From Brevibacterium permense (GTDB taxonomy: Bacteria > Actinomycetota > Actinomycetes > Actinomycetales > Brevibacteriaceae), in NCBI RefSeq assembly GCF_025506275.1, contig NZ_QYCP01000092.1:62001-126000 (forward strand): 64,000 nt of DNA, given 5' to 3'. A program made the translations under genes and the position numbers. Positions within the stretch are counted from its first letter, which is position 1, and each line of letters starts with the position of its first letter. Below, one piece after another: positions 11,469 through 37,207 of this stretch. Below the pieces are notes generated by a model. It ran no database searches and was not told where the DNA came from. It saw only the letters and a program-made list of their open reading frames with translations.

Positions 11469-12752
11469 GTGGCTCGCAGTGCGGACGGAGCAGACCTGCT
11501 CAAATGCAACTTCTGTGGGAAGTCTCAGAAGCAGGTTCGGAAACTCATCGCCGGACCTGGTGTTTACATCTGCGATGAATGCATCGGATTGTGCAATGAG
11601 ATCATCGAAGAGGAGCTCAGCGAATCCAGTCCGGAGCAGGCCGAACTCGAGCTGCCCAAACCTCGTGAGATCTTCGACTTCCTCCAGGAGTACGTAGTCG
11701 GTCAGGAACCGGCGAAGAAGGCACTGTCGGTAGCCGTCTACAACCACTACAAGCGCATCCGATCGCTGCAGTCCGGTGATGAGAAGACCCTCGGTTCCGA
11801 CGATTCCGAAGTTGAGATCGCGAAGTCGAACATTCTGCTCGTCGGTCCCACCGGCTCGGGAAAGACCTACCTCGCCCAGTCGCTGGCCAAGCGTCTCAAT
11901 GTCCCATTCGCGGTCGCCGATGCCACCGCGCTGACCGAAGCCGGCTACGTCGGCGAAGACGTCGAGAACATCCTGCTCAAACTCATTCAGGCCGCGGAGT
12001 TCGATATTCAGCGTGCCGAGCACGGAATCATCTATATCGACGAGATCGATAAGATCGCTCGCAAGTCGGAGAACCCGTCGATCACCCGTGACGTGTCCGG
12101 TGAGGGCGTGCAGCAGGCACTGCTGAAGATCCTCGAAGGCACCCAGGCGTCGGTGCCGCCGCAGGGCGGGCGCAAACACCCGCACCAGGACTTCCTGCAG
12201 ATCGACACGACCAATGTGCTCTTCATCGTCGCCGGCGCTTTCGCCGGGATGGAGGAGATCGTCGCCGGCCGCAAGGGCAAGCACGGCATCGGCTTCGGTG
12301 CCCTGCTGCAGTCGAAGAACGACGAAGAGGACCTCTACGCGGATATCCTTCCCGAAGATCTGCTCAAGTTCGGTCTCATTCCCGAGTTCATCGGCCGCCT
12401 GCCGGTGCTGGCCACCGTATCCAACCTCGACCGGGCTGCGCTGATGTCGATCCTCACGGAACCGAAGAACGCCTTGGTCAAGCAGTACCAGCGGATGTTC
12501 GAGTTCGACAATGTCTCTCTGACGTTCGAGACTGAGGCACTTGAGGCCATCGCCGACCTCGCTCTGCTGCGCGGTACGGGCGCTCGAGGCCTGCGCTCGA
12601 TCATGGAAGAGGTCCTGCAGCCGGTCATGTTCGATGTGCCTTCACGCGAAGACATCGCCGAGGTGGTCGTGACCAAGGACGTCGTCGAATCCAATGTCGC
12701 CCCGACCCTCGTGCCTAAGTCACGGAACAGGACGAATAAGAAGTCTGCCTGA
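11469..12752 (+). CDS. clpX: ClpX, ATP-dependent unfoldase of the Clp protease
   Basis: A 427-residue AAA+ unfoldase that feeds substrates to ClpP. The N-terminal zinc-binding domain has Cys13, Cys16, Cys35 and Cys38. Walker A is GPTGSGKT (126-133) and Walker B is IIYIDEID (187-194). The ClpP-docking loop is present as HGIGFG. Two GTG codons compete: 11463 and 11469. The second is 8 bases from aaagg (11456-11460) and gives the conserved N-terminus [13 protein letters not shown], so it is chosen. Confidence 0.95.
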
Positions 12753-12764
12753 GTCTCTTAGCGC

Positions 12765-14051
12765 ATGAGACTCCTGGCCGACACACGCCCACTGCGCTAC
12801 GCGTCGTTCCGACGACTGTGGGTGGCCAATATCGTCACCGTCATCGGTGCGCAGATGACTGTTGTGGCGATACCCGCACAGATCTTCCACATCACCGGGT
12901 CGTCCGGGTACGTCGGGCTCGCGGGTGCATTCGGGCTGGTTCCGCTCATCGTCTTCGGACTGTGGGGCGGGTCGCTGGCCGATGTCGTTGATCGACGCAG
13001 ACTGCTCGTGATCTCGACGGTCGGTCTGATCGTCACGAGCGCGATACTTGCTCTCATCGCGGTGCTCAGCATCGACAATGTCTGGCTGTTGCTGTCGGTG
13101 TTTTCGATGCAGCAGGCATTCTTCGGTCTGAACCAGCCGGCGAGGGGAGCTCTGCTGCCCTCGATCATCCCGCTCGGCCTGCTGCCCGCGGCGAACTCGC
13201 TGAACATGACCGTGATGACATTGGGCGCCGTCGTCGGCCCTGTCGTCGGCGGAGCGCTGATCCCTCTGTTCGGGTACCAGCTGCTCTACGTCATCGATGC
13301 CGTGTTCCTGTTCGCTACGCTCTATGCAGTGATCCGACTGCCGTCGCTGCCGCCGCAGAAACAGCCCGATACACGGTCTGGATTCAAAGGCATCGTCGAC
13401 GGATTCCGGTATCTGCGGACGAACACCGTCGTCATGGTCTCTCTGCTGGTGGACATCATTGCAATGGTCTTCGGAATGCCGCGGGCACTGTTCCCGCAGA
13501 TAGCCGCGGAGACCTTCGGCGGTCCGCCCGAGGGCGGCATCGTCTTCTCGCTGCTCTTCGCTGCGCTGGCCGGCGGAAGCGCATTGGCCGGGATCTTCTC
13601 CGGGTGGGTCTCACGTGTGGAGCGCCAGGGGCTGGCCGTCATCGTCGCCATCGTCGTCTGGGGTGCGGCAATGACGGTGTTCGGACTGTCTCTTGAGCTG
13701 GCGGCTGGGTTCTGGCTGACCGCGCTCGTCGTCGCCTTGGCCGCGATGGCGGTCGGCGGCGGAGCCGATATCGTGTCCGGCGCCTTTCGGCAGACGATGC
13801 TCCAGGAAGCCGCAACCGATGCCATGCGCGGTCGGATGCAGGGAGTGTTCATCGTCGTCGTCGCCGGCGGACCTCGTATCGCGGACGTCCTCCACGGCTC
13901 CGTCGCGGCCGTCACAGACACCACGGTCGCCTCGGCGGGTGGCGGCATCGCCGTCATCGTTCTCGTGCTCGCCTGTGCAGTGGCCTTTCCGACCTTCCGG
14001 AAATACCGGGTCGAACGCGGCGGCCACGAGCACACTGTCCCCACTGCCTGA
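12765..14051 (+). CDS. MFS transporter, EntS/MFS_3-like
   Basis: A 428-residue membrane protein with about 12 hydrophobic segments, resembling the MFS_3 exporters such as the enterobactin exporter EntS. The N-terminal RYASFRRLWVANIVTVIGAQMT and the loop GGSLADVVDRRRLL after the second helix are typical of this group. The substrate is unknown. It begins 12 bases after clpX and may be read from the clpX promoter, but its function need not be linked. It converges with the AHSA1 gene at 14106. Confidence 0.8.
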   Translation: MRLLADTRPLRYASFRRLWVANIVTVIGAQMTVVAIPAQIFHITGSSGYVGLAGAFGLVPLIVFGLWGGSLADVVDRRRLLVISTVGLIVTSAILALIAVLSIDNVWLLLSVFSMQQAFFGLNQPARGALLPSIIPLGLLPAANSLNMTVMTLGAVVGPVVGGALIPLFGYQLLYVIDAVFLFATLYAVIRLPSLPPQKQPDTRSGFKGIVDGFRYLRTNTVVMVSLLVDIIAMVFGMPRALFPQIAAETFGGPPEGGIVFSLLFAALAGGSALAGIFSGWVSRVERQGLAVIVAIVVWGAAMTVFGLSLELAAGFWLTALVVALAAMAVGGGADIVSGAFRQTMLQEAATDAMRGRMQGVFIVVVAGGPRIADVLHGSVAAVTDTTVASAGGGIAVIVLVLACAVAFPTFRKYRVERGGHEHTVPTA

Positions 14052-27811: not shown

Positions 27812-28112
27812 TCCTCAAGAATGCCTGGCTATGTCCCGTGCGGCAAACCCCGTCCCCATCGAAACCTCAGCGCAGAGGCACTTCTGTGACATAATGGTCG
27901 GACGGATACCTGTTCTCACACCGAGCAGGAGAAGTGCCTCCACCGAGTCGAGGGTATGACCTCGCAGGTCGACAACAAGATGAGGCAGCACGGAAGGCCT
28001 ACGCGCTGAGCGCGAGCCGGATGTGCCATCCACAGGTTTCGGTCCATTGCGGACCATGCAAGGATCCGAAGATCCGTACGGTGTGGACGGCGTCTTCGGA
28101 CTGGGAGATACG
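27812..28112 (+). promoter_or_regulatory. Long leader and promoter region of the RNase E/G gene
   Basis: This 301-base gap between divergent genes has a CATAAT -10 candidate at 27890-27895. GAGGCACTTCT (27875-27885) and AGAAGTGCCTC (27930-27940) are perfect 11-bp inverted arms that enclose it. If the -10 box is used, the leader is about 210 bases. Long 5' leaders on RNase E genes elsewhere serve autoregulation; that role here is inferred. Confidence 0.4.
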
Positions 28113-31100
28113 ATGAACGATACCGACGGCACAGAGTCGACAGACCCGACCGAAGGCATTCTCGCGGACCTCGCGAATCTGCAGCAGTCGGCGGGTGCCA
28201 AGAACGCCGAACACGAGGATGTCGACGACAGCGTGCGTGCGCGCCTCGATGACATCGCCGAGGCGGCCGAGTCGCTGCGTATCGGCGATGCCGATGACAG
28301 CGACGACGAGGAGGACGAAGAACCGACCCCTCGCCGAGGCGGGCAGAAGTCCGCACGCGATGCCGTGGCCAATCGGGGACTCGTCTTCGAGGAGTTCGTC
28401 CGCGGAGACTCGGACGACGATGACGATGATCACGACGACGCTGACAATGCCGATGGCGACGACGAGGACGATGAGTCCGATGCTGCGTCGCAGGCAGCGC
28501 CGAGCTTCGACCCGCGCAATCCCTTCGCGGCCCCGGCCGCTCCGGCTGCCGCACCCGAACCCCGCACCACTCCAGCCGTGCCCTATGACGGCGGCCTGAT
28601 CTTCCAGGTGCCGAAGGCCGAACACGCCGAGGTCATCACGATCGAAGACGATGACTCCGACGACGACTGGGATGATTCCCACGACTCCGACGGCGACACG
28701 TCGTCCTCACAGGAGAACCGCCAGAACGACCGCGGTGAGGACGATTCCTCCAACGGTCCGCGCCGGCGGCGAGGCGGCCGCGGGCGCCGATCGCGCAATC
28801 GCGATGACTCCCACGACGATTCCTCGGACTCCGACGACGACTCGAAGGACTCCGAGGACGACTCGAAGGACTCCGCCGGCAACCAGGACGCGAAGTCGTC
28901 GAAGCGGGGATCTCGGTCGAGCAATCGCGGTTCGAAGCGCTCGGATGCGGACGCCGAGGACTCACATTCGAAGTCGGATCATCAAGATTCCGATCACAAG
29001 GAGAACGACCACAGGGACTCCGACGATTCGGATTCGGACGATGGTGATGACGACTCCGACGGCGGTTCGCGCCGTCGCCGCCGTCGCCGGTCTCGCACCC
29101 GCAGCACCGACCGCGACGAAGTCACCTCGCTCAAGGGTTCGACCCGCCTCGAGGCAAAGCGCCAGCGTCGTAAGGAGGGCCGCGAAGCCGGACGTCGCCG
29201 CCCCATCATCACCGAAGCCGAATTCCTCGCTCGACGTGAGTCCGTCGAGCGGACCATGCTGGTGCGGGAGAGCGGCGACCAGACTCAACTCGTTGTCGTC
29301 GAAGACGGGATCGCTGTCGAGCACTACCTCAAGGAGAACCGTCAGCAGTCCTCGCTCATCGGCAACGTCTACCTGGGCAAGGTCCAGAACGTGCTGCCGA
29401 GCATGGAGGCGGCATTCATCGACATCGGCAAGGGCCGGAACGCCGTGCTCTACGCCGGTGAAGTCAACTGGGACGCCCTCGGCATGGACGGCAAGGCGCG
29501 GCGCATCGAAACCGCGCTGAGCCCCGGAGATGCCGTGCTCGTGCAGGTGACGAAGGATCCGATCGGACACAAGGGCGCCCGCCTGACCAGCCAGATCTCT
29601 CTGCCCGGGCGGTTCCTCGTCTACGTTCCCGGCAATTCGATGACCGGAATCTCGAGGAAACTGCCCGACAACGAACGCTCACGACTGAAGAAGCTGCTCA
29701 AACAGCTCGTCGGCGATTCGAACGGCGTCATCGTGCGCACCGCTGCCGAGGGCGCCACCGACTCCGATCTCTCGCGTGATGTCGAACGTCTCGCCAAACG
29801 GTGGGAGACGATCGAGAAGAAGTCGAAGTCGACGAAGGTGCTGGCCCCACAGCTGCTCTACAGCGAGCCGGACATGATCGTGCGCATCATCCGTGATGTC
29901 TTCAACGAGGACTTCAGCTCGCTCGTCATCGACGGCGACGGCGCATGGAACACCATCCACGAGTACGTCGAATCCGTCGCCCCGGACCTGCTCGATCGCG
30001 TCCACAGCTACAACGAGGACGAGGACATCTTCGACCACTACCGGATCGAAGAGCAGGTCCAGAAGGCGCTGCAGCGCACGGTCAACCTGCCCTCGGGAGG
30101 TTCACTCGTCATCGACCGCACCGAAGCGATGACGGTCGTCGATGTCAACACCGGCAAGTTCACCGGCTCCGGGGGCAATCTCGAGGAGACGGTGACCCGC
30201 AACAACCTCGAAGCCGCTGAGGAGGTCATCCGGCAGATCCGCCTGCGCGACATCGGCGGAATCATCGTCGTCGACTTCATCGACATGGTGCTCGAGTCCA
30301 ACCGCGACCTTGTGGTGCGCCGCCTCGTCGAGTGCCTCGGTCGCGATCGGACGAAGCATCAGGTGGCAGAAGTGACATCGCTGGGACTCGTGCAGATGAC
30401 GCGCAAGCGCATCGGCACCGGGCTCGCCGAATCCCTAGTCAGCGCCGGTGAAGACCTCACCGGCCGTGGACTGCTTCTGCCGGGTTCGGAAGAAGACGGA
30501 TCGAAGGCGCACCGCGGCGGCCGCTCGTCGAACCACGACAACCGCCGTGACCGCAAGCGCCGGGTAGACTCAGGCTCGAAGTCCAAGCACAATGAGTCCG
30601 AGTCGACAGATGAGACAGTGTCATCGGACGCTTCTCGGTCAGCCGTCGCCGCGATCGCGAAGGCCACCCTGAAGAAGGATGATGCCGATTCGCCCGAATC
30701 GACGTCCGACGCTCAGACTCAGTCCGATGATTCGGCGAACAACGGCGAGAACGGCAAGTCCCGATCGCGTTCACGGAACGGCCGGCGACGTTCGCGCTCG
30801 AGCCGGAGCGACGACTCGCAGGCCGAGACGCCCGACGAGAAGCCCAGTGGCAACGAGAAGTCGAACGGTGCTGAGCACACACCGGCGGAAGCGGCGCCTG
30901 CGAACGAGCAGACACAGTCCGCTGAACAGAAGCCGGCAGTCGTGCAGAAGCCGGTCGCAGATGAGCCGAAGGATCTGCCGTTGATGATCGGCGCGGACAG
31001 CGAGACGAAGGTTGCCGCCGCTGAACCGGTCAAGAGCACTCCGGCGAAGAAGCGCGAACCGGCGAAGAGGGCCCCTGCCCTCAAGCAGGAGCAGCTGCCC

Positions 31101-31130
31101 ACCTCGTTCGTCATCATCGGTGAGGACTGA
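28113..31130 (+). CDS. rne: Ribonuclease E/G
   Basis: A 1005-residue endoribonuclease of RNA decay and rRNA/tRNA processing. Residues 1 to about 350 are acidic, Ser/Asp-rich and punctuated by basic patches, a disordered extension usual in Actinobacteria. The catalytic core follows: S1 RNA-binding domain (YLGKVQNVLPSMEAAFIDIG), the 5'-sensor region, and the DNase I-like subdomain with VVDVNTGKFTG and GGIIVVDFIDM supplying the metal-binding Asp residues. The expected zinc-link CPxCxGxG is absent: the aligned place reads SAGEDLTGRGLLL. A second disordered tail ends in Lys/Pro-rich repeats. The ATG at 28113 has gggag upstream and fits the acidic start. Confidence 0.92.
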   Translation: MNDTDGTESTDPTEGILADLANLQQSAGAKNAEHEDVDDSVRARLDDIAEAAESLRIGDADDSDDEEDEEPTPRRGGQKSARDAVANRGLVFEEFVRGDSDDDDDDHDDADNADGDDEDDESDAASQAAPSFDPRNPFAAPAAPAAAPEPRTTPAVPYDGGLIFQVPKAEHAEVITIEDDDSDDDWDDSHDSDGDTSSSQENRQNDRGEDDSSNGPRRRRGGRGRRSRNRDDSHDDSSDSDDDSKDSEDDSKDSAGNQDAKSSKRGSRSSNRGSKRSDADAEDSHSKSDHQDSDHKENDHRDSDDSDSDDGDDDSDGGSRRRRRRRSRTRSTDRDEVTSLKGSTRLEAKRQRRKEGREAGRRRPIITEAEFLARRESVERTMLVRESGDQTQLVVVEDGIAVEHYLKENRQQSSLIGNVYLGKVQNVLPSMEAAFIDIGKGRNAVLYAGEVNWDALGMDGKARRIETALSPGDAVLVQVTKDPIGHKGARLTSQISLPGRFLVYVPGNSMTGISRKLPDNERSRLKKLLKQLVGDSNGVIVRTAAEGATDSDLSRDVERLAKRWETIEKKSKSTKVLAPQLLYSEPDMIVRIIRDVFNEDFSSLVIDGDGAWNTIHEYVESVAPDLLDRVHSYNEDEDIFDHYRIEEQVQKALQRTVNLPSGGSLVIDRTEAMTVVDVNTGKFTGSGGNLEETVTRNNLEAAEEVIRQIRLRDIGGIIVVDFIDMVLESNRDLVVRRLVECLGRDRTKHQVAEVTSLGLVQMTRKRIGTGLAESLVSAGEDLTGRGLLLPGSEEDGSKAHRGGRSSNHDNRRDRKRRVDSGSKSKHNESESTDETVSSDASRSAVAAIAKATLKKDDADSPESTSDAQTQSDDSANNGENGKSRSRSRNGRRRSRSSRSDDSQAETPDEKPSGNEKSNGAEHTPAEAAPANEQTQSAEQKPAVVQKPVADEPKDLPLMIGADSETKVAAAEPVKSTPAKKREPAKRAPALKQEQLPTSFVIIGED

Positions 31131-31223: not shown

Positions 31224-32615
31224 TCAGCCTGCCGACTGCTGATTGCGGGTGGTGCTGATCGTCGGCTGTGCGGCCTGGTCACCGCAGAGGACGATCATCA
31301 GGTTCGATACGAGGTCGCTTCGTTCGGTCTGTCCGAGCCTGACGATCTGGCGTCCTTCGATCTCCTCGATCGCCGTCTCGACCATTCCCACAGCTCCTTC
31401 GACGATGAGCTGACGGGCAGCGACGACGGCCGTGGCCTGTTGCCGCTGGAGCATGGCACGGGCGATCTCCGGGGCGTAAGCCAATTGGGTGATGCGCGAT
31501 TCGATGATCGTTACGCCCGCAGCCATGACCCGGGCAGCGACTTCATCGGAGAGCCGCGACGTGATCTCGTCGGCGTTGTCACGCAGCGACATGCGGCCGG
31601 GATCCGACGAATCGTAGGCATAGGAGTTGGCGATGTGCCGAACCGCGGTCTCTGCCTGGATGGCGACGAACTCTTCGAAATCATCGACCTCGAACATCGC
31701 CTGTGCGGTATCGCGGACCTGCCAGACGACCACGGCGCCGATCTCGATCGGATTGCCATCGTGGTCATTGACCTTCAGCGTCGAGGTCTCATGGTTGCGG
31801 ATGCGCGTCGAGATCTGATCCTTCGTGTAGAAGGGATTGACGAATCGCAGACCCGACTGCCTGACCGTTCCGACGTACTTGCCGTAGAGCTGGAGGACGA
31901 CGGCATGTCCGGGCGCGACCGAGGTGCATCCCTTGAACAGGAACATCGACGCGATGAAGAAGAGGACGGCGACGATGAAGAGGATGACCCCGACGACGGC
32001 TTGGGCGAAGGTCATGACGAACCCGATGATGCCCAGCAGCACGGCGGCGAGCAGGAGGACGATGGCGCCGACGATGGCAAAGTAGCCCGAGACACCGCCT
32101 GCCGGCTTCTCTCGGACACGTTCGCCATCGGGGGAGACGATGCGGGTGGGGGCCGAATTCGGCCGGCCCGGGTCCGATGTCCCTCTGCGGGGACCCGACG
32201 TCTGAGCCGAGTGGCGACCGGGACCACGGTTCGGTGCCTGGGCTGGAACAGGTCCGGAGCCGAGGGCCTGACCTGAACCGTCGGGTTGTCCGGCCGAGCG
32301 ACGATTCTGCGGCGCCGGTGGCAGCGGGGCGCCTTCACGGTGGTGGGGCGGTGCACCGGTGTTCGCCTGGGCACCGGCCGGCGGACCATACGGTGCCGTC
32401 GACCCCGAACCGCCGATCGCTCCGGACTGAGCGCCCTGCGAACCATAGTGCCCATTGGGATTCGTCACTGCCTCGGCCCCGGGGTACGCCGCGGGCTGAC
32501 TGTGGCCGGTCTGGATATGCGTGCTCGGGTCACCACTGGGGACGGGGCCGCGATCGGGGGTCTGGTTCGACGGTCGATTCGGCTGCTGACCGGGCTGCTG
32601 GGCATTCTGAGTCAT
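31224..32615 (-). CDS. SPFH/Band 7 domain membrane protein with Pro/Gln-rich N-terminus
   Basis: A 463-residue protein. Residues 1-165 are rich in Pro, Gln, Gly and Ala and probably disordered. Two hydrophobic segments lie around 175-235. The SPFH domain follows (about 245-420), starting VAPGHAVVLQLYGKYVGTVRQSGLRFVNPF and including DEVAARVMAAGVTIIESRITQLAYAPEIA. Such proteins form large membrane microdomain scaffolds. The typical partner NfeD is not next to it. It converges with the RNase E/G gene and is divergent from the alanine symporter. Confidence 0.85.
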   Translation of the reverse strand: MTQNAQQPGQQPNRPSNQTPDRGPVPSGDPSTHIQTGHSQPAAYPGAEAVTNPNGHYGSQGAQSGAIGGSGSTAPYGPPAGAQANTGAPPHHREGAPLPPAPQNRRSAGQPDGSGQALGSGPVPAQAPNRGPGRHSAQTSGPRRGTSDPGRPNSAPTRIVSPDGERVREKPAGGVSGYFAIVGAIVLLLAAVLLGIIGFVMTFAQAVVGVILFIVAVLFFIASMFLFKGCTSVAPGHAVVLQLYGKYVGTVRQSGLRFVNPFYTKDQISTRIRNHETSTLKVNDHDGNPIEIGAVVVWQVRDTAQAMFEVDDFEEFVAIQAETAVRHIANSYAYDSSDPGRMSLRDNADEITSRLSDEVAARVMAAGVTIIESRITQLAYAPEIARAMLQRQQATAVVAARQLIVEGAVGMVETAIEEIEGRQIVRLGQTERSDLVSNLMIVLCGDQAAQPTISTTRNQQSAG

Positions 32616-32719
32616 GCTCCCAGTCTAGGCCAGGTAATGAGACGCGAATCTCAAATAGCCGAGGAAGACCCTATTTGGTAACGGTTCGATAACTGAACGG
32701 GTGCCACTACATGGAACGC

Positions 32720-32747
32720 TTGAATGTGACGCAGGTCTCAGTAGGTT
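32720..32747 (+). promoter_or_regulatory. Promoter for leaderless symporter mRNA
   Basis: TTGAAT (32720-32725) and TAGGTT (32742-32747) with a 16-base spacer. The ATG at 32756 lies 8 bases after the -10 box, so transcription probably starts at or next to the start codon. Confidence 0.5.
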
Positions 32748-32755
32748 GTCACACT

Positions 32756-34285
32756 ATGACTGATCTTCATATCTCAGCAGCGCCGGTCTCGCCGGTCGAC
32801 GATGCCATCAATTCCTGGTTCGACCCGATCGCCACATGGTTCGGCAGCATCATCTTCTTCCCGATCACCATCGGAGCGATCTCGTTTCCCTTCGTCGTCC
32901 TGTGGCTGATCTTCGCGGCAGCCGTCTTCACCGTGTACTTCGGCTTCATCCAAGCGCGAGGTGCGAAGCTGTCGCTCGAGATCATCCGCGGAAAGTTCTC
33001 CTCGAAGTCCGACCCGGGCGAGGTCACCCACTTCCAAGCCCTGGCCTCCGCCCTGTCGGGAACCGTGGGCCTCGGCAACATCGCCGGTGTCGGCGTGGCT
33101 ATCGCGCTCGGCGGCCCCGGAGCGACCTTCTGGATGATTGTCGCCGGCCTGCTCGGCATGTGCACTAAGTTCGTCGAATGCACCCTCGGGGTGAAGTACC
33201 GTGAGATCGACGAGAACGGAGTCGTCCACGGCGGGCCGTTCAAGTACCTCCCCGTTGCGTTCCGACGCTTCTCGAAGCCCGTGGCGACCGCTCTGACCGG
33301 ACTCTTCGCCATCGCGATCCTCATCTTCGGTGTCGTCGGCGGCGGCATGTTCCAGGCCAATCAGACCTTCGCCCAGGTCCGCACCGCCACCGGCGGCGAT
33401 GACGGCTTCCTGGCCGGCCCCTTTGCCTCACTCGTGTTCGGGCTCATCTTCGCGGGACTCGTGGCCCTGGTGATCCTCGGCGGCATCCGCTCGATCGCAA
33501 AGGTGACCGACAAGCTGGTTCCCGGGATGGCCATCTTCTACGTCGTCTCGTGCCTCCTCGTGCTCGGGCTCAACTACGCGAACATCCCGAATGCCATCGG
33601 CGAGATCTTCGCCGGGGCCTTCAACCCGCAGGGCGTGGCCGGCGGCATCGTCGGTGTCATGATCATCGGCTTCCAGCGTTCGGCGTTCTCGAACGAGGCG
33701 GGCATCGGCTCCGCAGCCATCGCGCACTCCGCAGTCAGGACTCGTCGCCCGATCTCCGAAGGATTCGTCGCACTGCTCGAGCCCTTCATCGACACGGTGA
33801 TCGTCTGCACCATGACCGCGCTGACGATCATCGTGGCCAACCAGGCCTCTTACCGCAACGACCTCGGTGAAGGTGAGATCGGCGGTGTCGCCCTCGCCTC
33901 GGACGCCTTCTCCACCGTCGCCTCGTGGTACCCGATCCTGCTGGCCATCGCCGTTGCCCTCTTCGCGTTCTCCACCCTCATCACATGGGCATACTACGGA
34001 GAACGGGCGTGGAGCTATCTGTTCGGGCGTTCGAAGGCCACGATCATGATCTTCCGTACTCTCGTCTGCATCTTCGTCGTCGTCGGCTGCATCGCCAGCT
34101 TCTCCAAGGTCGTCGAATTCGCCGATGCGGCCCTGTTCATGTGCGCCTTCATCAACATCCTCGGCCTCTACATGCTCATGCCGGTGGTCAAGAAGGAGAT
34201 GAAGAAGTACCTCGCCGACCGCAGGGCCGGTACGTTGAACGACCCGGACACCGCCGACGCCGTCCCGGTCGAAGAACCCGCCTGA
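32756..34285 (+). CDS. Sodium:alanine symporter (AGCS) family transporter
   Basis: A 509-residue membrane protein with about 11 helices. Family text includes ALSGTVGLGNIAGVGVAIALGGPGATFWM (sodium/substrate site), GGGMFQANQ and AFSNEAGIGSAAIAHSAV. It imports alanine or glycine with Na+, which suits the Na+ gradient maintained by the Mrp antiporter further on. The ATG at 32756 was preferred to one 45 bases upstream because no ribosome binding site is seen before either, and the promoter position favours a leaderless message from 32756. Confidence 0.88.
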   Translation: MTDLHISAAPVSPVDDAINSWFDPIATWFGSIIFFPITIGAISFPFVVLWLIFAAAVFTVYFGFIQARGAKLSLEIIRGKFSSKSDPGEVTHFQALASALSGTVGLGNIAGVGVAIALGGPGATFWMIVAGLLGMCTKFVECTLGVKYREIDENGVVHGGPFKYLPVAFRRFSKPVATALTGLFAIAILIFGVVGGGMFQANQTFAQVRTATGGDDGFLAGPFASLVFGLIFAGLVALVILGGIRSIAKVTDKLVPGMAIFYVVSCLLVLGLNYANIPNAIGEIFAGAFNPQGVAGGIVGVMIIGFQRSAFSNEAGIGSAAIAHSAVRTRRPISEGFVALLEPFIDTVIVCTMTALTIIVANQASYRNDLGEGEIGGVALASDAFSTVASWYPILLAIAVALFAFSTLITWAYYGERAWSYLFGRSKATIMIFRTLVCIFVVVGCIASFSKVVEFADAALFMCAFINILGLYMLMPVVKKEMKKYLADRRAGTLNDPDTADAVPVEEPA

Positions 34286-34333
34286 GAATCTCGAGCTCCG
34301 GCTCGCAGCGAAGGAAGCTGCCGCGACCAAGGC

Positions 34334-34373
34334 TGTCTGTGCGCCGCGCCCATACGGACGCGGCGCACAGACA
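34334..34373 (+). terminator. Terminator after the AGCS symporter
   Basis: A perfect 15-bp inverted repeat (tgtctgtgcgccgcg and complement) around a 10-base loop, 48 bases after the stop. Confidence 0.75.
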
Positions 34374-34387
34374 GGTTCGGGCGTCGA

Positions 34388-34393
34388 TAGACT
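34388..34393 (+). promoter_or_regulatory. -10 box for leaderless chorismate mutase mRNA
   Basis: TAGACT ends 6 bases before the GTG at 34400. The start codon would be at the transcript 5' end. Confidence 0.5.
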
Positions 34394-34399
34394 GGGGGC

Positions 34400-34717
34400 G
34401 TGGATGAGAACAGAGATGACAGAACACGCGCAGTCGAACGGCTGCAGGAGCTGCGAGGCAGCATCGACAACATCGATGCCTCCCTCGTTCACCTGCTCGC
34501 CGAGCGCTTCAAACTCACCGAACGCGTCGGCGAACTCAAAGCCGACCACGGTCTGCCCCCGGCCGACGAGTCTCGGGAAGCCAGGCAGGTCGCCCGACTG
34601 CGAGAACTCGCCGAGGAGTCCCATCTTGATCCGGAGTTCGCAGAGAAGTTCCTGGCGTTCATCGTCGCCGAGGTCATCCGCCGGCACGAGCGCATCGCGG
34701 AGACGCGCGAAAGCTGA
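34400..34717 (+). CDS. Chorismate mutase type II (AroQ class)
   Basis: A 105-residue all-helical enzyme converting chorismate to prephenate for Phe and Tyr synthesis. The N-terminal helix ERLQELRGSIDNIDASLVHLLAERF has the Arg and Asp pattern of AroQ domains, followed by the Lys helix (ERVGELKADHGLP) and a third helix ending with RRHERIAE. It is a single-domain form without fused prephenate dehydratase or dehydrogenase. No signal peptide, so cytoplasmic. The GTG start lies directly after a -10 box, so it is probably translated from a leaderless mRNA. Confidence 0.85.
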   Translation: MDENRDDRTRAVERLQELRGSIDNIDASLVHLLAERFKLTERVGELKADHGLPPADESREARQVARLRELAEESHLDPEFAEKFLAFIVAEVIRRHERIAETRES

Positions 34718-34965: not shown

Positions 34966-35274
34966 ATGGTCTATGCCATCGTCCGCGCCGGAGGCCACCA
35001 GGAAAAGGTGAGCGTCGGCGACATCATCACAGTCAACCGAATGAAGGCGAAGGCTGGAGACAGCGTCGAACTCGATGCCGTACTTCTTGTCGACGGTGAG
35101 ACGGTCACGACCGATCCCGACGCTCTGGCGAAGGTCTCGGTCAGCGCTGAGGTCGCCGGTGAATTCCGCGGTCCCAAGATTGTGATCCAGAAGTACAAGA
35201 ACAAGACCGGGTACAAGAAGCGTCAGGGCCACCGCCAGGACCTCACCCGTCTGAAGATCACGAACATCAAGTAA
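34966..35274 (+). CDS. rplU: 50S ribosomal protein L21
   Basis: A 102-residue large-subunit protein. [19 protein letters not shown] is the conserved start and [20 protein letters not shown] the L21 signature that contacts 23S rRNA. rpmA follows after 15 bases, the universal pairing. Length is the family norm. Confidence 0.97.
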
Positions 35275-35289
35275 GAGGAGACTTCTCAC

Positions 35290-35541
35290 ATGGCAAGCAA
35301 AAAGGGAGTCAGCTCGACCCGCAACGGTCGCGACTCGAACCCACAGTACCTCGGCGTGAAGCGCTTCGGCGGCCAGGCCGTCAAGGCCGGCGAGATCATC
35401 GTCCGCCAGCGCGGAACCAAGTTCCACCCCGGAGCCAATGTCGGCCGTGGAGGAGACGATACCCTCTTCGCTCTGACCGCCGGTGCCGTGGAATTCGGAA
35501 CCCGCAACGGTCGCAAGATCGTCAACATCGTCGGAGCCTGA
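35290..35541 (+). CDS. rpmA: 50S ribosomal protein L27
   Basis: An 83-residue large-subunit protein reaching the peptidyl transferase centre with its N-terminal arm. [19 protein letters not shown] and [19 protein letters not shown] are the L27 signatures. There is no Firmicutes-type cleavable N-terminal extension. A ribosome binding site (aagaggag) precedes the ATG. Confidence 0.97.
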
Positions 35542-35593
35542 TCCTTTCCGGATCCGTTCCATCGTCAATATGATCTCTCCCTGAAAAGGGAGC

Positions 35594-35625
35594 ATGAAGG
35601 GTGAGTCAAACGACTCACCCTTCAT
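35594..35625 (+). terminator. Terminator or attenuator between rpmA and obg
   Basis: A perfect 14-bp stem (atgaagggtgagtc and complement) with an AAAC loop. A smaller hairpin CTCCC/GGGAG (35577-35592) precedes it. The obg start is only 17 bases on, so partial read-through is likely. Confidence 0.65.
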
Positions 35626-35641
35626 CTGATATAAGGACATT

Positions 35642-37207
35642 ATGGCCACCGAGTTCGTAGACCGTGTCACCGTTCACCTCGCCGCAGGCGCAGGTGGGAA
35701 CGGGTGTGCCTCGATCAGGCGCGAGAAATTCAAACCGCTCGGCGGGCCCGACGGCGCCGACGGCGGCAACGGCGGCAACATCATCTTCCGCGTCGACCGT
35801 CAGACCACCACCCTGCTTCCCCTGCACCACCGTCCGCACGTGCGTGCCGACGACGGCGGGATCGGCAAGGGCGATCTGCGCCACGGCGCCGACGGCAGAG
35901 ACCTCATCGTCGACGTGCCCGAGGGCACCGTGGTGAAGAACACCAACGGCGACGTCATCGCTGACCTCGTCGAAGACGGAACCGAATTCACCGCAGCCGC
36001 CGGTGGCCGTGGCGGGCTCGGAAATGCCGCGCTGGCCTCGACGAAGCGCAAGGCCCCCGGCTTCGCGCTCCTCGGAGAGCCAGGGCAGACGCTCAGCCTC
36101 GTGCTTGAACTCAAGACGATCGCCGATATCGCCCTCGTGGGATACCCATCGGCGGGCAAGTCGAGCCTGATCGCTGCGCTATCGGCCGCCAAGCCGAAGA
36201 TCGCCGACTATCCATTCACGACACTCGTGCCCAACCTCGGGGTCGTTCAAGCCGGCGACACGCGCTACACGGTCGCCGACGTTCCCGGACTCATCCCCGG
36301 CGCATCGGAGGGCAAGGGACTCGGCCTCGAGTTCCTTCGCCACGTCGAACGCTGTGCCGGCCTCGTCCATGTCATCGACATGGCCACCTGGGAGCCCGGA
36401 CGCGATCCCGTTTCCGACCTCACAATCATCGAATCCGAACTCGCCGCCTATGCCGTCGACCTCGACGACGGGAGCGGACTCCTGCCGCTTTCACAGCGCC
36501 CGAAGCTCGTGGCGCTGAACAAGGTCGACATCCCCGACGGTCGCGACCTCGCCGATATCGTCCGGCCCGATCTCGAAGCCGCCGGATATCGGGTCTTCGA
36601 GATTTCGGCAGTCAGCCATGCCGGCCTGCGGGACCTCTCGTTCGCCATGGCCGAGCTCGTGCTCGCCGAACGGGAACGTCGCGCCGAGATCGAAGCGACA
36701 CCGCAGCGCGTGGTCATCCGCCCGAAGGCCGTCGACGATCGCGGATTCGAGGTCCGTCCCGAACGCACCTCCGACGGACCGCTGTTCCGCGTCCTCGGCG
36801 ACAAGCCTCGTCGCTGGGTGCAGCAGACGGACTTCGGAAACGACGAAGCCGTCGGCTACCTCGCCGACCGCCTCGAGCACCTAGGCGTCGAAGAGGCTCT
36901 TTTCAAGGCCGGAGCGAAACCCGGCGACACCATCGTCGTGGGCGGAGACGACGGCGTCGTCTTCGACTGGGATCCCACAACCGTCGGCGGAGCAGAACTG
37001 CTCGGCTCCCGCGGATCGGACGCCCGACTGGACGAGGAAGCGCGCTCCACACGCAAGGAACGCAAGGCCGCTTATCACGAGAAGATGGACGCGAAGGCCG
37101 CCACGCGGGCCGAGTTCGAACAGGAGCGGTTGGCCGAACGTGCCCACCGCGAGAGCCGCCTCGGTGCACCTGCGACAGAGTCCGGTGAAGGAGCCGGCGA
37201 GGAGTGA
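35642..37207 (+). CDS. obg: Obg-family ribosome-assembly GTPase
   Basis: A 521-residue GTPase acting in 50S subunit maturation and stress response. The glycine-rich Obg fold (about 1-160, with [10 protein letters not shown]) is followed by the G domain with P-loop GYPSAGKSS near 170, switch [14 protein letters not shown] and NKVD near 298. The OCT domain occupies about 350-430, and a charged, Arg/Glu-rich tail (about 460-521) completes the actinobacterial long form. Its stop overlaps the proB GTG by 4 bases. Confidence 0.95.

Follow-up and report, generated by a model that had tools for sequence, protein, structure and literature searches.

The RNase E/G encoded in the window, the term used here for the whole stretch of 64,000 nucleotides of Brevibacterium permense DNA that was analysed, lacks both cysteines of the zinc link. 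A different and conserved motif stands in their place throughout Brevibacterium and two sister genera of its family. As read from the sequence, a Cys4 zinc bridge is impossible in this enzyme, since both link cysteines are gone and no other CxxC pair occurs in the chain. Comparison across the order indicates that the zinc link has probably been lost three times, in the Brevibacteriaceae, in Kineococcus and in Curtobacterium. Neither the conservation of the replacement nor the recurrence of the loss is visible from one sequence. The RNase E/G family is well known; no report of a natural loss of the RNase E zinc link was found in searches of the open-access literature.

The gene and its link segment

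The following features, all on the plus strand, were distinguished in the window:

28113-31130, plus strand: RNase E/G gene, with an ATG start and encoding 1005 aa with one Cys (profile matches and translation)
29259-30446, plus strand: catalytic core, alignable to E. coli RNase E, residues 383-778
29598-30410, plus strand: PF10150 span, residues 496-766 (profile match)
30141-30149, plus strand: D-V-N, the equivalents of E. coli D303 and N305 (alignment; invariant in the 32-row alignment)
30273-30275, plus strand: D, the equivalent of E. coli D346 (alignment to E. coli; 32-row alignment)
30333-30335, plus strand: sole Cys of the chain, in VECLGRD, residue 741, outside the link and conserved in the class
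30399-30434, plus strand: TRKRIGTGLAES, the segment leading into the link, in which Ala replaces the L/V/I of relatives at the E. coli-397 position
30435-30485, plus strand: LVSAGEDLTGRGLLLPG, the putative metal-free replacement of the zinc link (sequence comparison, dN/dS)
30447-30449, plus strand: Gly in place of the first link Cys (C404 in E. coli; alignment)
30456-30458, plus strand: Leu in place of the second link Cys (C407 in E. coli; alignment)
30486-31127, plus strand: low-complexity C-terminal arm, in which the PF20833 small domain was undetected

An in-frame GTG at 28023 provides an alternative start for the gene and would add 30 residues. The protein scores 342.7 bits against PF10150 (cut-off 25.5) and 476.4 bits against TIGR00757 (cut-off 325.95), and with 742.2 bits falls below the 1400-bit threshold of NF052588, the mycobacterial RNase E equivalog. 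The profile search of the 4.2-Mb assembly returned a single RNase E/G match, the window gene itself, which rules out a second copy carrying the link. Residues 383-778 can be aligned with the catalytic domain of E. coli RNase E (PDB 2BX2, 2VMK), with which the catalytic and 5'-sensor residues are shared. Thus, equivalents of F57, K112, D303, N305 and D346 are all present, while those of the 5'-sensor residues R169 and T170 are kept in an IVRTA that lies opposite the IVRTA of E. coli; the roles of these seven residues in the E. coli enzyme are described in PMC10126417. Actinomycetes RNase E/G proteins with an intact link (Rothia, Microbacterium, Nocardia and the Streptomyces RNase ES) have the same catalytic residues as the window protein, and the catalytic cores of named relatives outside Brevibacterium are 63-72 % identical to it. 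The S1 domain (PF00575) was unreported for the window protein at an E-value of 0.001 and is borderline in some relatives, and the region aligns with the S1 stretch of E. coli. By profile scores and alignment, the Brevibacterium protein is a member of the RNase E/G family that stands outside its zinc-linked form, and since its catalytic residues are intact it is most likely active.

The window stretch encodes TRKRIGTGLAESLVSAGEDLTGRGLLLPGSE, with TRKR at 30399-30410 and GEDLTGRG at 30447-30470, and the full link region reads TRKRIGTGLAESLVSAGEDLTGRGLLLPG, in which the GRG is retained. Typical relatives read TRK(R/K)xGxGL(L/V/I)ExFSxxCxxCxGRGxxVH; where the intact Actinomycetes proteins carry CxxCxGRG, usually followed by xxVH, the window protein has GEDLTGRGLLLPG. 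Neither CxxCxGxG nor CPxCxGxG occurs in it, Gly and Leu occupying the ligand positions. The absence of the zinc-link cysteines at this place, and the presence of a single Cys in the whole chain, had been noted in a sequence-only reading of the window, and both observations hold: the CxxCxGRG of the relatives corresponds to GEDLTGRG, and exactly one Cys is found among the 1005 residues, which rules out a CxxC pair elsewhere in the chain. This Cys falls in the C429 column, which is nearly invariant in the 32-row alignment. The CPxCxGxG that the same reading had given as the reference motif of the E. coli and Mycobacterium tuberculosis enzymes is correct for E. coli, whereas relatives within the class read CxxCxGRG, mostly with CE.C; one named mycobacterial relative, Mycolicibacterium bacteremicum (L246), has CSHCAGRG.

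The genes rplU, rpmA and obg often follow rne closely in actinobacteria, and ORFs resembling these three by eye are located at 34966-37207 of the window. The stretch between them and the RNase E gene (31224-34717) holds three ORFs named by eye from their translations: a band-7/SPFH-like one on the minus strand, one resembling a sodium:alanine-type symporter and a short one resembling chorismate mutase.

Distribution and probable number of the losses

Both link cysteines are missing in 57/57 sequences of Brevibacterium and two sister genera (g2 and g3), a set made up of 55/57 Brevibacterium genomes (G048 and G051 were left out) and the sister-genus genomes G057 and G058. The alignment of relatives at this position, which the sequence-only reading had proposed as a check, thus bears out the absence, and the agreement of the 57 sequences rules out a sequencing error at the link. 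The third sister genus of the family (g4, G059) keeps EPCEHCGGRG. In G048, a single-contig Brevibacterium assembly, the RNase E lies in two overlapping frames (G048:C1:1672004-1673466), reflecting a frameshift or an assembly error, while contig G027:C1 bears partial RNase E matches at both ends in addition to a full gene (11940-13412), which may reflect a circular chromosome whose overlap was left uncollapsed.

Across the order, a DNA pattern search matched the intact motif, TRK(R/K)...CxxCxGxG, in 342/397 genomes. The 55 misses comprise 39 Brevibacterium, eleven Kineococcus (g17) and two Curtobacterium (g405) genomes, together with G109, in which the cysteines are kept in a changed context, and G107 and G940, in which no RNase E was found. 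The link is missing in 10/10 Kineococcus genomes that were read, with no RNase E found in the eleventh (G089). Group g17 was assigned to Kineococcus on the basis of a 12,917-base contig of G104, which shows 100 % identity with a K. radiotolerans plasmid across the 6,000 bases that were aligned, and the RNase E tail in the two g405 genomes is nearly the same as that in three named Curtobacterium records. The sister genera, Kineococcus and Curtobacterium together rule out a loss limited to one strain or genus.

The class search matched 287/295 genomes, and its eight misses consist of two Brevibacterium genomes, three genomes that keep CPECNGRG and fail the pattern (G626, G638, G647) and three in which no RNase E was found. 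The order and class searches covered genomes of at least 97 % completeness, with tallies taken from the per-genome table, and the DNA pattern used for class and phylum requires a Gly two codons after TRK[R/K], which was dropped in the order search. The phylum search matched 104/398 genomes, but this pattern is a poor test outside the Actinomycetes and no count was drawn from it. Among thirty genomes of other classes sampled from those without a pattern match, RNase E/G was found in 24, one sequence ending before the link and both cysteines being present in 23/23 with a readable link. Altogether 254 sequences were collected, of which 231 were read by script (154 kept, 77 "lost", the latter including four repeat genomes and L162, which has both cysteines without the first Gly of CxxCxGxG); the other 23 comprise twenty with both cysteines by eye and three that are cut off.

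The number of losses was estimated on a quick maximum-likelihood tree built from 84 core sequences that had been truncated ahead of the link, with SH-aLRT as the only support measure; two further chosen rows were dropped as the anchor was not found. The lost or kept label needs three changes on this tree. Kineococcus (support 99) and Curtobacterium (100) each form one branch beside link-keeping relatives, while Brevibacterium and g3 group together (98) inside the node of the family (99), which leaves the branching of g2 and of the link-keeping g4 unresolved. The change count alone does not tell gain from loss, and the three changes are taken to be losses since the motif occurs in the rest of the class as well as in other classes.

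The outcomes differ among the three clades. The Brevibacteriaceae have kept glycines in the new motif, whereas the stretches of Kineococcus (for example GLAAVLEELDAAADANPAP) and Curtobacterium (GLRESLDEVNAKVNDNNADPGP) have lost the GRG as well as both cysteines and are unlike that motif. Residues ahead of the link have been replaced too, as in Brevibacterium: the aliphatic residue at the E. coli-397 position has become Ala or Arg in all three losing clades, and the Phe before the link, found in 142/143 keepers, is Leu in Kineococcus and Curtobacterium and L (42), M (8) or F (7) in the 57 Brevibacteriaceae sequences. The His of GRGxxVH, at position 29 after TRKR, is present in 117/143 keepers and is replaced in each losing clade (by mostly Pro, by Pro or by Gly), and so seems to travel with the zinc-link cysteines.

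Compensating substitutions were sought by comparing the 143 keepers with 55 Brevibacteriaceae, ten Kineococcus and five Curtobacterium sequences at an 80 % consensus threshold. The columns of E. coli-397 and C404 were the only ones flagged in all three clades. The Phe column was flagged in Kineococcus and Curtobacterium and falls just under the threshold in the Brevibacteriaceae, while that of C407 was flagged in the Brevibacteriaceae and Curtobacterium and falls just under 80 % in Kineococcus. Five core columns (alignment columns 64, 132, 231, 283 and 296) were each flagged in two clades, with no readable pattern. No clear compensating core change was found in this search, with no column away from the link flagged in all three clades. 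An RNase J-family gene occurs in 15/15 genomes tested, losers and keepers alike, and RNase J therefore does not explain the loss of the link. Two RNase J-family genes exceed the cut-off in G104, a Kineococcus radiotolerans genome (G104:C2:734990-736606 and 443212-444828), with one in each of the other fourteen.

Constraint on the replaced link

All 57/57 Brevibacteriaceae sequences share G16, D18, G21, G23, L24, L26 and P27, numbered from the Thr of TRKR (position 0), and 55/57 keep Arg 22 of the GRG. The replacement motif can be written as G-x-D-(L/M/F/I)-x-G-x-G-L-(L/M/V)-L-P, or GxD-hydrophobic-xGxGLxLPG. Synonymous codons vary at the invariant positions, all four GGN codons among them, and the mean pairwise identity is 0.80 at positions 12-27 compared to 0.37 just beyond. 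The pooled link dN/dS is 0.20 in the Brevibacteriaceae (55 sequences), 0.16 in proteins with an intact link (46 sequences) and 0.43 in Kineococcus (10 sequences), values which pool related pairs (856, 767 and 45, respectively) and in which the intact "Microbacteriaceae" set, selected with a motif in which one of the sixteen link positions is fixed, includes a few other taxa and repeats. The dN/dS of the adjoining core is 0.04-0.07 in all sets, and the three Curtobacterium sequences are too few to judge. The Brevibacteriaceae link is under purifying selection nearly as strong as that on intact links, whereas the Kineococcus link stretch is, by the same measure, decayed.

Assembly of the enzyme and competing explanations

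The shared zinc has been described as organising the quaternary structure and the active site of RNase E. DNase I contacts are stated in PMC2631609 to "dominate the dimer interface" of the E. coli enzyme, with the small domains joining the dimers and the zinc link sitting between the large and small domains. E. coli RNase E, which forms a dimer of dimers, has CPRCSGTG and the PF20833 small domain, and the window protein has neither sequence feature. PF20833 was not reported for the window protein in a profile scan at E-values up to 0.001, nor for seven other Actinomycetes proteins at E-values up to 0.1, both zinc-less (L057, L095, L238) and intact (L066, L094, the Actinomadura protein L206 and the Agromyces protein L217), while it was found in the E. 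coli control. Among proteins from other classes of the phylum, PF20833 exceeds the cut-off in L155 and is weak in L159. Its occurrence there and the negative scans in the eight Actinomycetes proteins suggest that the small domain was lost earlier than the zinc link. The RNase E of the cyanobacterium Anabaena is likewise without the small domain, as described in PMC10989914, but unlike the window protein keeps the Zn-link according to PMC10783494 and PMC10989914.

As PF20833 went undetected even in the zinc-linked Actinomycetes proteins scanned, the E. coli assembly picture is not simply transferable. RNase E from mycobacteria is cited as tetrameric in PMC3997798, and since the small domain was undetected in the Actinomycetes proteins scanned, tetramers may form in this class by contacts outside it. 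Nor does a CxxC link need to bind zinc, given that the Caulobacter RNase E fragment tested in PMC12510024 carries such a link and bound none in vitro. AlphaFold2 models of the window core and of the intact Rothia relative L174 are poor, with a mean pLDDT of 62 and values below 50 for the window link, and lend no help to the favoured explanation. The sequence-only reading had concluded that the enzyme must assemble otherwise or work as a dimer. The zinc ligands are indeed gone and unreplaced, but "must" is too strong, because a dimer joined by the DNase I surfaces would need no new mode of assembly.

The explanation that we favour, at slightly better than an even chance, is that of an active RNase E which pairs via its DNase I surface and has a conserved metal-free link in place of the zinc link. 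As in E. coli, two protomers would pair through the DNase I-like surfaces; the glycine turn would be kept, and the hydrophobic side chain at the old second-Cys position would pack near the two-fold axis instead of zinc. The Brevibacterium enzyme would thus be a zinc-free dimer, at most a weak tetramer, with no need of zinc at the link, while in Kineococcus and Curtobacterium, where the link would not have been remodelled in the Brevibacterium fashion, it would probably form a plain linker. This explanation is supported by the presence of one gene over the family cut-offs with its active-site equivalents kept, by the conservation of the replacement (57/57; dN/dS 0.20), by the three separate link changes, by the undetected PF20833 in the eight Actinomycetes proteins and by the dominance of DNase I contacts in the E. 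coli dimer interface. Against it, E. coli RNase E with a disrupted motif forms no tetramers and is much less active, according to works cited in PMC2631609 and PMC12510024, and the search for a compensating core change gave no clear candidate. A role of the Brevibacterium link in dimerisation is further weakened because Kineococcus and Curtobacterium manage without a remodelled link, and the link is under weaker constraint than the core (dN/dS of 0.20 vs 0.07).

The main rival, which we regard as possible though rather unlikely, is neutral loss: the zinc link may simply be dispensable in the class, adding little in Actinomycetes without the small domain, so that its cysteines would drift once the DNase I interface suffices and the residual motif would be kept for another role, for instance to terminate the core fold or to bind a partner. 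This would fit three separate losses, each of which ended differently, the relaxed Kineococcus link (dN/dS 0.43), the undetected small domain in the eight Actinomycetes proteins scanned and the shortened E. coli RNase E of Caruthers 2006, which reportedly keeps core functions without the Zn-link and the small domain. That peptide is a laboratory truncation, however, whereas Brevibacterium presents a natural and conserved replacement. The motif is also kept in every other sequence that could be read in the samples of order, class and phylum and hence is not generally free to drift, and the constraint on the Brevibacteriaceae link, close to that on intact links, likewise speaks against neutral loss.

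A bolder form of the favoured explanation, in which the Brevibacteriaceae evolved a protein-only dimer latch, G-x-D-hydrophobic-x-G-x-G-L-x-L-P, and actinobacteria released RNase E more than once from zinc and thiol chemistry, appears improbable; if true, RNA decay would no longer depend on the supply of zinc, nor would it be sensitive to copper or oxidants. Still less probable is an adaptive loss of the thiols, whereby link cysteines that are a target of copper or oxidants were removed in lineages with high cytoplasmic copper or oxidative loads, keeping the RNase E active. Copper drives the oxidation of the link cysteines in Caulobacter RNase E, as reported in PMC12510024, and Kineococcus radiotolerans, a member of a genus without the link, accumulates soluble copper in its cytoplasm, as reported in PMC2928746. 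However, Kineococcus is the only one of the three genera for which a copper trait is known here, and the other Cys of the chain is kept. That RNase E might be protected against metals and oxidants by losing the two thiols is speculation drawn from one genus. A different metal bridge, with the invariant Asp of each protomer and backbone or water ligands holding a hard metal such as Mg or Mn, has very little probability: although the Asp at offset 18 is identical in 57/57 sequences, it is the only invariant acidic residue of the link, and two carboxylates per dimer would make a poor site. An error of sequencing or assembly, or a gene in decay, can for practical purposes be dismissed, as 57/57 sequences agree and the core dN/dS is 0.07, this agreement and the purifying selection together ruling out decay.

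Three apparently natural losses, one of them with a conserved replacement, provide a set of ready-made enzymes with which the function of the zinc link could be addressed, including questions of dimer stability, tetramer formation, 5'-end sensing and the response to metals. For the family as a whole, the CxxCxGxG motif is unsafe as a mark of RNase E across the actinobacteria.
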